Of a stretch of 64,000 nucleotides of DNA, positions 33,724-37,420 are shown in pieces. Source of the stretch: a virus. The notes under the pieces are model-generated. The model was not told the origin of the DNA. It did not search any database and saw only the letters and a program-made list of their open reading frames with translations. Each line of letters starts with the position of its first letter. Position 1 is the first letter of the stretch. The position numbers and the translations under genes are program-made. The stretch lies in IMG/VR virus record IMGVR_UViG_3300030390_001550, positions 26,232 to 90,231 of that record; one strand, given 5' to 3'.

Positions 33724-34620
33724 ATGTCTTTTGCAAATCTAAAACGTAATCGTGGTCAGATTGACCGATTAAGTGCTGCCGCAACAGCAACACAAACCAC
33801 TACAAAATCTTATGTGGATGAACGCATGTGGAAACCCACTGTTGATAAACAGAATAATGGCTATGCTGTTATTCGTTTCTTGCCAGATGGGAAAGAAGGT
33901 TCTGAAGTACATTTTGTACGTTATTGGGATCATGCCTTTAAAGGTCCAACTGGTAAATGGTACATTGAGAAGTCTTTGACTTCAATTGAACAACAAGACC
34001 CAGTTGGTGAATACAATTCCAAACTTTGGAATAGTGGTATTGAATCTGATAAAGAAACAGCGCGGCGTCAAAAGCGGCGTCTGCATCATGTTTCAAATAT
34101 TCTGGTAGTTTCTGATCCAGGAAATCCAGAAAATGAAGGCAAAGTTTTCATGTACCAATATGGTAAGAAAATCTTTGATAAACTTATGGATGCTTGGTCG
34201 CCAGAATTTGCAGATGAAACACCTATGAATCCATTTTGTATGTGGGAAGGTGCAGATTTCAAACTTAAAATTCGTGATGTTGAAGGTTATCGTAATTACG
34301 ATAAATCTGAATTTTCCTCAACTCGCGTATTATCAGAAAGTGATGAACGCTTGGAAGAAGTATATGACAAGTGTTACGATCTTTCAGAGTTTACTGATCC
34401 AGCAAACTATAAGTCTTATGCAGAACTAGAAACTAAGATGCGTAATGTTTTAGGTCAAACTGAACCTCAACCAACAATGGCACAAACTGCTTCATTGGGT
34501 GTGGAAAAGGCTCCAGCATTGGATGATAATATTCCAGATTATGCTGCGCCTAAAAAGACAGAAGTAGAAGGCGAAGATAATACTATGGATTACTTTGCAA
34601 GTCTAGTTAACGAAGACTAA
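33724..34620 (+). CDS. 32: gp32-like single-stranded DNA-binding protein
   Basis: A 298-aa protein with the T4-like gp32 outline: an N-terminal basic self-association region (S-F-A-N-L-K-R-N-R), an OB-fold core with Y-A-V-I-R-F-L-P and W-D-H-A-F-K-G-P-T-G-K-W-Y, N-P-F-C-M-W-E-G-A-D-F-K-L, and an acidic C-terminal tail (E-V-E-G-E-D-N-T-M-D-Y) that in T4 contacts partner proteins. Unlike T4 gp32 there is no His-Cys3 zinc site; only one or two Cys remain, as in the known marine relatives. It coats ssDNA in replication and recombination. Confidence 0.92.
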   Translation: MSFANLKRNRGQIDRLSAAATATQTTTKSYVDERMWKPTVDKQNNGYAVIRFLPDGKEGSEVHFVRYWDHAFKGPTGKWYIEKSLTSIEQQDPVGEYNSKLWNSGIESDKETARRQKRRLHHVSNILVVSDPGNPENEGKVFMYQYGKKIFDKLMDAWSPEFADETPMNPFCMWEGADFKLKIRDVEGYRNYDKSEFSSTRVLSESDERLEEVYDKCYDLSEFTDPANYKSYAELETKMRNVLGQTEPQPTMAQTASLGVEKAPALDDNIPDYAAPKKTEVEGEDNTMDYFASLVNED

Positions 34621-36518
34621 TTTCCATAATGAGGAAATGCCCAGCGTAGCGAATTATCTGCTACGCTGGTCAACACCCCACCATTTAGATTGGTGGTATT
34701 CTGTTGAACATTTGATAATGTAGAATTATCCATTATAACGGTTGGTTGTTTTTTTCCAATACCAGTAGCAGCAACTGCCATATTTTCAGCAGCACGAACT
34801 TCACTTTCTAATCTTGATGCTAAAAGTGCTCTGTTATTTTCACTTTCTACAAAAAGTCGGCGGTTTTCTGGTAAATTTGACATATCAGGGCCATTCATCT
34901 CTTCAATTTTTTCCTTTGTGTCTAATGACCACTTTAAAAAAGTATCTCTCATATCAGTGACACCACCTGCTAAGTCGGTATTAAACCCAAATACTCCAGT
35001 TGCCATATCTGCTAATCCAGCAAAACTTTTTGTAATTCCAGCAGCAGCACCAACCATACCCACTTCAATACTATCTGTAAGAGTTTGCGGTTTAAATGTT
35101 TTTAAAGCATCCCCAGCACCTGTGACACCATCAAATACTGCCATACCAGCAGCAAGAACTTGTCCAGCAATTGGAATACCTCTGGCAAGGCCACCGAATT
35201 TTCCACCGAATTTTGCAAGTTTCCCAAGTTTACTTTTGGATTTTCTATCAGCAGCATCCATTGCAGCATCTGACATAAAGTCTCCACCAACCGCTTTGCC
35301 ATTGATTTTTGTTCCTGCTGGATATTGACGCCTTACTCTTCCTTTTTTATCATCACCATCAATATCAACAATATCATCCATTCCAAAGCCAAACATATTT
35401 TTAAATCTTTGAAATTTGCTTCTTTTCCCTCTTGGTTTTTTACCATCACCATCAATACCAAGACCACCTAATCCCCTAGCCCGTATTGCGGCGGTCAGTG
35501 CGACCATTGCAGCAGTGTTCGCGAGTGTATTAATCGCTTGAATCCCAGAAATAACAGCCCTTACTCCCGATATCGCCACCCCCAACAATCTCATAGGCCC
35601 ACCTAATGCAATTATTGCTGCTGTTAATCCAAGCATTTCTGCGATGCCAAACTCTTTACCCATAAACTCAGTTATTTTATCTCTCAATGGTCCAAGACCT
35701 AAAGTCTGTACTACATCTTCAAAAAATATTTTTGTATTTTCCCACATAGTTGTCATACCATCAAGTGCAGTCTGGAGAGATGGAAATGCAGTGAGCATTT
35801 GATTCACACTTTCTTTCAAGGCATCAAAAGCACCACCTTCAGCAAAAGCACCACCGATTGATTTCAAAGCACTAGTCATTGTCTCACCAAAGAGAGGCAT
35901 ACCAAAAAGTTCATCTGCTTTGTTATTTATTGCATCAAGTATACTAAAGCCTGGATCAATACCTAACTGATCCCTAAATCTCGCCACTAGAAATGCAACA
36001 GCACCACCAGCAAGAACTGTCGCTAAAATTGCTCCAGTAAAACCACCAAACCCTTGCATAATTTCAGACATATTTGCTAGGTTTCCAAGCATTCCACCTT
36101 GTCTATTTCCAGAACGCATAACTCCCTTTTTTTGCAGTGCGCCATCAACCTTTTTTCTATCACGTTTTTCTTCAATCGCATCAAGTCTTGACATTTGTTG
36201 GTTTGCAAGAAATTTAGAAAACATAGTAACCAATCTAAACATATTTTTACCTATGTCTTTAACTTCATTAGTTAATTTTAAATCGGTACTCAATGTTTTA
36301 GGCATTATTGATAAGGATTTTACCATATCAGTAAGGTTTTTCATACCAGGAACTTTTACTCCAACATCTATTTTTTGAACAGATTTTTCCAAATTATTGA
36401 AACCTTTTTTGATTTCATCAAGTGTTGATTTATTCAACTGCATATTTTTGAAGTTAATATCAGCAATTCCATCGCTGTTTATTTCTCTAACTTCATTTAC
36501 TGTTGCTCCAAATGCCAT
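34617..36518 (-). CDS. Tape-measure / hub-type tail protein
   Basis: A 633-aa protein, alpha-helical at the N-terminus (1-130), with two hydrophobic stretches (about 158-180, G-G-F-T-G-A-I-L-A-T-V-L-A-G-G; and 295-345) and a Gly/Ala-rich region near 450-480. Such Gly-Ala-hydrophobic segments are typical of tail tape-measure proteins (T4 gp29 is 590 aa). It lies directly after gp26 and its -1 extension, the standard place of a tape measure after the tail chaperone. Its stop overlaps the gp32 stop from the other strand by 4 nt. Confidence 0.68.
   Translation of the reverse strand: MAFGATVNEVREINSDGIADINFKNMQLNKSTLDEIKKGFNNLEKSVQKIDVGVKVPGMKNLTDMVKSLSIMPKTLSTDLKLTNEVKDIGKNMFRLVTMFSKFLANQQMSRLDAIEEKRDRKKVDGALQKKGVMRSGNRQGGMLGNLANMSEIMQGFGGFTGAILATVLAGGAVAFLVARFRDQLGIDPGFSILDAINNKADELFGMPLFGETMTSALKSIGGAFAEGGAFDALKESVNQMLTAFPSLQTALDGMTTMWENTKIFFEDVVQTLGLGPLRDKITEFMGKEFGIAEMLGLTAAIIALGGPMRLLGVAISGVRAVISGIQAINTLANTAAMVALTAAIRARGLGGLGIDGDGKKPRGKRSKFQRFKNMFGFGMDDIVDIDGDDKKGRVRRQYPAGTKINGKAVGGDFMSDAAMDAADRKSKSKLGKLAKFGGKFGGLARGIPIAGQVLAAGMAVFDGVTGAGDALKTFKPQTLTDSIEVGMVGAAAGITKSFAGLADMATGVFGFNTDLAGGVTDMRDTFLKWSLDTKEKIEEMNGPDMSNLPENRRLFVESENNRALLASRLESEVRAAENMAVAATGIGKKQPTVIMDNSTLSNVQQNTTNLNGGVLTSVADNSLRWAFPHYGN
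34641..34669. terminator. Strong inverted repeat at convergent gene ends
   Basis: CCAGCGTAGC, 9-nt loop, GCTACGCTGG, perfect 10-bp arms, 20 nt past the gp32 stop and inside the 3' end of the minus-strand tape-measure-like gene. No T run follows on either strand. It may stop or protect gp32 mRNA. Confidence 0.6.
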
Positions 36519-36527
36519 CTTTTATTC

Positions 36528-36713
36528 CTAGTTTTGTTGTTGTGCTTTTATTCTATCGTTTTCTTCCTCAACGTGTTGTATCAATAATGTAATGTATATC
36601 TCTCTTTCCCACGGCATCATATTATCAAGTTCTGTTAATGAATATTTGTGATCTTGCATTAATTGAAAATTGGTCTTATAATGACTTAACAGGTTATCAT
36701 GAGAAAGAGCAAT
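36528..36713 (-). CDS. -1-frame C-terminal extension of gp26 (tail-chaperone T-like)
   Basis: An open frame without its own early start runs on from the last codons of gp26 in the -1 frame for 61 codons: ...F-L-I-A-L-S-H-D-N-L-L-S-H-Y-K-T-N-F-Q-L, then L-T-E-L-D-N-M-M-P-W-E-R-E-I-Y-I. The M-P-W-E-R-E-I-Y type segment is typical of the T-like part of tail assembly chaperones. Eight T on the coding strand (36715-36722) with codons GAT TTT TTT TAA form a slippery site right at the gp26 stop. A short independent start also exists (ATG at 36659, 43 codons). Either way it is likely expressed. Confidence 0.7.
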   Translation of the reverse strand: MALSHDNLLSHYKTNFQLMQDHKYSLTELDNMMPWEREIYITLLIQHVEEENDRIKAQQQN

Positions 36714-37420
36714 TAAAAAAAATCATCTAATCCTTCTAATGTAAATTCGTTTGAGTGATTGCATTTTACGCAATTAAAATTTACAGTTTCAGACAATTTT
36801 GGCATAGTCTGAATCCACTCTTTTACTTTATCAAATTGAGTTGATGATAGTGATCCAATAAAATCTTGAATTTCATCTTGGCTCTCATCCGCAAGATCAT
36901 ATCTTTCTTCTGCTGTTTCCAAAACTTTCATACATTTACTAATCATTTGAAAAGTCTTTACTGTGTCGCTCAGTGTATCATCTCCATCAGCATCCATGAT
37001 AGATTTAAAATTTGGATAGCCCATGTGTAAAACCATATCTTCTGTAATCTTTATTTTACTACTAACAGATTGTTCGGTAACCTCAATTGTAGATAGGTCA
37101 ATTGGTACTGGATTGTCGGCCTCACATTCTTCACATTTTATTGTGACATTGGCGTTCTCTCCTACAGATTTTGACCTAAGTTTGAGAAACATATATTCAA
37201 CATCAAAAGAGGTTAATTTATTTTGGTCAACATCACCTTCAAGACACGCCATAATAGTATCAACAATAGCATTTACTGTCGCCCTTTTATCTTCAGACTC
37301 CATTGCTAACATTAACACTTTTTCTTCTTTAACCAAATAAGGTCTAAACTTTACATTTGTCTTGGTTGAGGGGATTGTTAATTCATATTTTGGTTTATCA
37401 TTTAGTTTTGGTAGTGCCAT
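36713..37420 (-). CDS. 26: gp26-like baseplate hub / tail chaperone protein
   Basis: A 235-aa protein of the T4_baseplate (gp26) family. It has F-R-P-Y-L-V-K-E-E-K-V-L-M near 26-38 and two CxxC pairs (C96/C99 and C217/C220), which could bind one zinc. The chain ends D-D-F-F-stop in a T8 run that permits a -1 frameshift into a 61-codon extension. Gene order tube-like, gp26, extension, tape measure equals the tail-tube, chaperone, tape-measure order of many tailed phages. Confidence 0.85.
   Translation of the reverse strand: MALPKLNDKPKYELTIPSTKTNVKFRPYLVKEEKVLMLAMESEDKRATVNAIVDTIMACLEGDVDQNKLTSFDVEYMFLKLRSKSVGENANVTIKCEECEADNPVPIDLSTIEVTEQSVSSKIKITEDMVLHMGYPNFKSIMDADGDDTLSDTVKTFQMISKCMKVLETAEERYDLADESQDEIQDFIGSLSSTQFDKVKEWIQTMPKLSETVNFNCVKCNHSNEFTLEGLDDFF

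Follow-up and report, generated by a model that had tools for sequence, protein, structure and literature searches.

A gp26-gp51 tail assembly chaperone locus with a conserved candidate -1 frameshift site in a marine T4-like phage

Known chaperone systems and the gp26 locus

Gp26 and gp51 are reportedly the tail assembly chaperones of T4-like phages, as laid out by Vladimirov, Gautam and Davidson in 2022 (Virology 566:9-15); frameshifting is said in that work to be conserved in several T4-like groups, with T4 itself using the separate genes 26 and 51. In the passages that cite this study, the PRFect paper (PMC10885494) refers to T4-like phages in which a short gene is accompanied by a fused long one, and the phage Adele paper (PMC12846349) to poly-T slippery sites in T4-like TAC-N genes. 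The lambda G/GT chaperone model and the roles of its proteins are set out in a section of PMC5009743, which in 2016 still gave T4 as an exception. The frameshifted gp26/gp51 arrangement of T4-like phages was already reported by Vladimirov et al. and is no new class. The locus described here carries the same proteins as the T4-like chaperones of Vladimirov et al. and is one more member: the first-pass annotation united gp26 with the chaperone class correctly, but not for the first time.

The window, i.e., the whole 64,000-nt stretch analyzed, comes from a 90,231-nt record of a marine T4-like phage; the features of the locus are listed in Table 1. The tube gene lies directly upstream of gp26, its stop overlapping the gp26 start by one base, and its product also matches the tail tube of HTVC008M in BLAST (E 1e-7). 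gp26 matches PF12322 (T4_baseplate, the gp26 family) with E 2.6e-58 and 197.7 bits against a curated cut-off of 24.5, and phrog_150 with E 1.1e-61 (hmmscan). The 633-aa protein beyond the extension had no family match in profile searches and no significant BLAST match to annotated tape measures; all 78 relatives with enough sequence have an ORF of 250 codons or more downstream on the same strand. The gene order read at first pass (tube, gp26, extension, tape measure) thus stands for the first three and for a long gene after them, which is a probable tape measure gene by place and size alone.

Table 1. Features of the gp26 locus, in window coordinates.
Feature	Position	Strand	Remarks
Tail tube-like protein, 194 aa	37420..38004	-	phrog_45 tail tube, E 3.9e-33
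gp26, putative short tail assembly chaperone (TAC-N), 235 aa	36713..37420	-	PF12322, phrog_150
-1-frame stop TGA, immediately 5' of the heptamer	36723..36725	-	
Candidate slippery heptamer T_TTT_TTT	36716..36722	-	Within a run of eight T at 36722..36715
gp26 zero-frame stop TAA	36713..36715	-	
-1-frame extension, gp51 domain (putative TAC-C)	36528..36716	-	L + 61 codons + TAG
633-aa protein, probable tape measure	34617..36518	-	By position and size; 9 nt past the extension

The gp26 junction and the gp51 domain

On the minus strand, gp26 ends in ...GGA TTA GAT GAT TTT TTT TAA, with GAT TTT TTT TAA set in eight T just as the first-pass annotation had described it. Read in the zero frame, T_TTT_TTT conforms to X_XXY_YYZ. 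Reading after a -1 slip gives TTA ATT GCT CTT..., translated L-I-A-L..., and ends at the TAG at 36530..36528; the open frame of 61 codons noted earlier is preceded by the leading L, i.e., 62 codons past the slip counting the leucine. The conceptual fusion crosses the junction as F-F-L-I-A-L-S-H... and would be 297 aa long. Since the -1 frame is closed by the TGA at 36725..36723, the shift must fall inside the T run. For comparison, 24 of 17,786 codon pairs carry an in-frame T_TTT_TT, and only 2 of 67 ORFs have one within their last 12 codons, in a background set of the window's ATG-initiated ORFs of at least 100 aa that includes spurious ORFs and gp26 itself. The T run at the end of gp26 is more than chance.

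The extension, taken at first pass for a plausible coding continuation, is that and more than an anonymous one: it is the known gp51 domain, matching phrog_634 gp51 (‘baseplate hub assembly catalyst’) with E 1.1e-27 over profile positions 59-117 of 121 (hmmscan). Its further match to phrog_150, the profile of gp26 itself, falls at the C-terminal end (E 9.8e-6, profile positions 236-278 of 282). tblastn with the extension reached 673 of 50,697 phage records, cyanophages for the most part, and with gp26 itself 693 records; in S-WAM1 and S-CAM1 the extension interval carries no annotation. Modeling gave a predicted three-helix domain (pLDDT 83.2), which had no match above Z 3.4 when the extension alone was compared with known structures.

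The extension is under strong purifying selection from the first codons past the slip. The median dN/dS was 0.17, with dN below dS in 99.8% of 1061 informative-range pairs from 159 usable extensions, and the close relative L008 differed by pS 0.28 and pN 0.006. Over the first 16 codons past the slip, the -1 frame gave pS 0.575 and pN 0.134; the other two frames showed no such excess (pS/pN 0.201/0.212 and 0.181/0.238).

Conservation of the site and alternative explanations

To follow the junction across relatives, 172 gp26 loci were collected, comprising the window, 80 of its gp26 relatives from IMG/VR (the best 80 of 125 confirmed), 80 relatives of the gp26 of Pseudomonas phage pf16 (the best 80 of 147) and 11 annotated phage loci. 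Five ran off their contigs and were dropped, which left 167 readable to the gp26 stop, 8 of the 11 annotated loci among them. Outside this set stand 14 further named phage regions picked by hand and 15 Kuttervirus-type loci from one scan; a scan of viral contigs with the gp26 of Vibrio phage 1.255 returned no relative.

The T run and the -1 frame, whose conservation had been proposed as a check on the first reading, are both kept. Among the 167 loci, which come mainly from two seed queries and are related by descent rather than phylogenetically independent, 163 gave a gp51-domain hit at E<1e-2, each of them in the -1 frame and none in another. Three of the remaining four (L025, L106 and L110) have fewer than 50 nt left, and the fourth, L091, gave E 0.014, also in the -1 frame. 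An in-frame T_TTT_TTN stands at most 10 codons from the gp26 stop in 166 of the 167, L091 being the exception, and is spelled TTTTTTT in 91, TTTTTTC in 62, TTTTTTA in 12 and TTTTTTG in 1. After clustering, it was retained in 64/65 representatives at 90% identity, 39/40 at 70% and 17/18 at 50%.

The spelling is kept as the residues change. In 39 of 39 representatives the codon before TTT ends in T, its residue being D, S, N, A, T or R, and the second codon of the heptamer encodes Phe or Leu, giving DFF, SFF, NFF, TFF, NFL, SFL, AFL, DFL and RFL. The probability of these spellings under each locus’s own codon usage summed to a log10 of -19.3 over the 39, with shared ancestry ignored. The heptamer is also present in GC-richer phages. 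TTTTTTC with the -1 domain was found in seven of the 14 further named phages (nt-1, XZ1, PX29, W-14, SRB7757, Astolliot and Bakedbeans), among which W-14 has 56% GC. The other seven comprise six Ackermannviridae-type phages with the -1 domain and no heptamer, and Kosakonia phage Kc304 (T4 type) with neither.

The zero-frame stop lies 8 codons past the slip in 29 of the 167 loci (L114, L129, L141, L144 and others), and about eight codons are open there in two frames (zero ...SPTT..., -1 ...LSHNNL...).

Signals that might stimulate slippage were sought on both sides of the site. Folding of the 70 nt past the slip gave the window a z of +1.0, with no stimulatory structure, and revealed no consistent stimulator among 38 representatives (mean z -1.14); strong downstream folds appeared in two non-cyanophages, pf16 (L087, z -5.1) and Marzo (L089, z -2.4). 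Upstream, a Shine-Dalgarno-like stretch reached -5.8 kcal/mol against a background of -1.5 kcal/mol, and its strength was -5.68 observed against -4.80 expected (Wilcoxon p 2.5e-4, without phylogenetic correction). As a stimulator it was set aside, being largely explained by conserved E-G residues; in the window, the sequence was not stronger than synonymous re-draws.

The likeliest alternative, itself very unlikely, makes gp51 a small gene apart from gp26, expressed through re-initiation or with a start codon of its own beyond gp26. It is annotated in this way in many records, among them P-RSM6, HTVC008M and P-SSM2, and a -1-frame start overlaps the gp26 stop in 40 of the 167 loci counting ATG, GTG and TTG, and in 9 counting ATG. 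The first-pass annotation had named separate genes as the contrary outcome, and in the window no start codon occurs from the -1 stop at 36725 to 56 nt past the gp26 stop, where the first -1-frame ATG falls inside the conserved domain. The stretch ahead of any ATG is conserved as -1 protein, and a separate gene would need neither the fixed -1 phase nor the in-frame heptamer seen in 166 of the 167 loci. Start codons (ATG, GTG or TTG) do occur in the first 16 extension codons of 75 of 161 loci (ATG in 25 of 161), so a free gp51 domain is possible in some relatives.

An ATG in the -1 frame overlaps the gp26 stop, as TGATG or TAATG, in L086, L088, L089, L091 and L092. In all of these except L091, which has no heptamer, the overlap accompanies an intact heptamer, and such sequences could make both the fusion and a free gp51 domain.

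Slightly less probable still is transcriptional slippage on the eight-T run, by which mRNAs of differing length would yield the fusion. Polymerase slippage becomes noticeable near a run length of eight T, about the length of the window’s run, and six T are too short for it to be efficient. Against this, the heptamer reads TTTTTTC, TTTTTTA or TTTTTTG, with six T, in 75 of the 167 loci, and these keep the same phase. An assembly or sequencing error that dropped one T from a continuous gp26-gp51 gene, homopolymers being prone to error, can practically be dismissed, since the 100-nt junction is identical in three other IMG/VR contigs (L005-L007), which makes a T missing from one assembly unlikely, and the phase is -1 in 163 of 163 determined loci, many with six T only, and frame 0 in none.

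The Ackermannviridae-type junctions form a side lead. YC, Limestone1, FEC14, A8-29, D494, 1.255 and Trex carry the -1 domain without T_TTT_TTN; their junctions read ATT TTC, CTT TTY or GCT TTC, all seven keeping only T_TTY at the same Phe codon, and in four of them a start overlaps the stop as TAATG. The Kuttervirus-type junction GAR ATT TTC ATT TAA TTT TTG was found in 15 of 15 IMG/VR loci, where no start codon occurs until 32 nt past the start of the stop codon; the extension gave pS 0.43 and pN 0.06 between two subgroups. Heptamer-less gp26 3' ends of the Ackermannviridae type were observed in L091, L176, L178-L181, L186 and L189-L203. Ackermannviridae and close relatives have kept the -1 gp51 domain but lost the heptamer. 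Tentatively, and with slightly less than even confidence, we suggest that their shift may involve slippage of one tRNA or some other route; gp26/gp51 would then form a natural series of two-tRNA slip, degenerate slip, stop-start overlap and, in T4, gene duplication. A literature search revealed nothing on heptamer loss in Ackermannviridae among the entries listed; Vladimirov et al. 2022 may cover it.

Predicted fold, proposed expression and relation to known systems

An AF2 model of gp26 (27 alignment rows, pLDDT 84.8) was compared with the PDB. VIA-align 2 placed 3fgx on gp26 residues 3-96 (Z 8.0, rmsd 4.5, 87 aligned), 3klu (YqbN) on residues 118-207 (Z 6.9, rmsd 3.2, 81 aligned) and 2ob9, the HK97 tail assembly chaperone, on residues 1-90 (Z 6.7, rmsd 3.9, 85 aligned); the next row had Z 3.7. 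All three are called phage tail assembly chaperones in a passage of a 2022 paper (PMC9603447). Foldseek with the same model gave nothing at E<=0.001, with 2ob9 fifth (E 0.6, probability 0.77), and a PDB sequence search with the gp26 profile found nothing, its best E of 0.04 being unrelated. The moderate Z scores are supportive of a TAC fold of the HK97 gp13 type in gp26, and this predicted fold lends independent backing to the G/GT-type chaperone class proposed at first pass.

The model suggests that gp26 may consist of two tail-chaperone folds in tandem. Its halves align in register by hhalign but weakly (E 0.0025, probability 12%), so the tandem-repeat idea draws on the fold matches. gp26 has two CxxC pairs, C96/C99 and C217/C220; across the 27 aligned rows the four positions read CCCC in 17, C--- in 5 and ---- in 5, and the zinc-ribbon chain 3vpb aligns across both halves (Z 2.9, VIA-align 2). 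The cysteines and 3vpb together suggest that the halves may be joined by one shared metal site.

Together, sequence, frame, heptamer, conservation, selection, homology and predicted fold indicate that gp26 and its -1 extension are very probably a tail assembly chaperone pair made by -1 ribosomal frameshifting. Slippage and its rate, the product ratio and the binding partners we infer as follows. Most ribosomes would end at the TAA and release gp26 (TAC-N); in a minority, with Phe-tRNAs occupying both the P and the A site at TTT TTT, the T run would allow a one-base backward slip, and these ribosomes would continue in the -1 frame to produce the 297-aa gp26-gp51 fusion (TAC-NC), the rarer long form. 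On the lambda G/GT model, the gp26 portion would coat the tape measure protein, the gp51 domain would recruit tail tube subunits, and both forms would leave before the virion is complete. In a section of PMC3004832, gp26 and gp51 figure as chaperones of hub assembly; claims that place gp26 within the hub are also reported there, and such a location would be at odds with a chaperone missing from the virion. The record of Dickeya phage Limestone1 (L179) labels gp26 a confirmed structural protein, likewise a misfit with a chaperone that leaves the virion.

In T4, genes 26 and 51 are divergent, on opposite strands. PF12322 is found in T4 gp26 (E 8.8e-64) and in residues 1-201 of T4 gp51 (E 3.9e-52), and the latter protein spans phrog_150 nearly end to end (13-280 of 282). 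By hhalign, the gp26 profile falls on T4 gp51 residues 12-185 (E 5e-8) and on T4 gp26 (E 9e-17), and the extension of the window’s family on T4 gp51 residues 207-243 (E 7e-5). T4 gp51 is therefore a gp26-like part plus the extension domain, and T4 encodes the short form and the long form in separate genes. The window’s record of 90,231 nt, possibly a fragment, contains a single PF12322 gene. Sullivan et al. 2010 (PMC3037559) state, in the passage concerned, that cyanophage gp51 has only about 20% of the length of its T4 counterpart and is without the first ~200 residues; in T4 those residues are a second gp26 copy, which explains the short cyanophage gp51. Rather than a free protein, the short ‘gp51’ annotated in cyanophages most likely forms the C-terminal end of a frameshifted gp26.

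This settles the annotation of a gene that many T4-like genomes leave unannotated or give a wrong start, and the conservation is broad enough to make a good model of slippery-site evolution.

Compared with described systems, the locus resembles lambda G/GT in layout and proposed roles: a short protein and a -1 fusion, predicted in the window, near its 3' end, encoded between the tube gene and a tape measure gene, the latter probable in the window. Unlike lambda, the window has a T_TTT_TTN site, and its gp26 is a protein of ~235 aa with two predicted TAC-like halves and a putative four-cysteine site. T4, unlike the window, needs no frameshift, gp51 being a separate full-length gene. The chaperone of Vandenendeviridae (phage Adele) uses a -1 frameshift at the poly-T motif GTTTTT, with the downstream frame open in all its sequences according to the relevant section of PMC12846349; by description, its -1 shift and poly-T site are like those proposed for the window, and it differs in belonging to another phage family.
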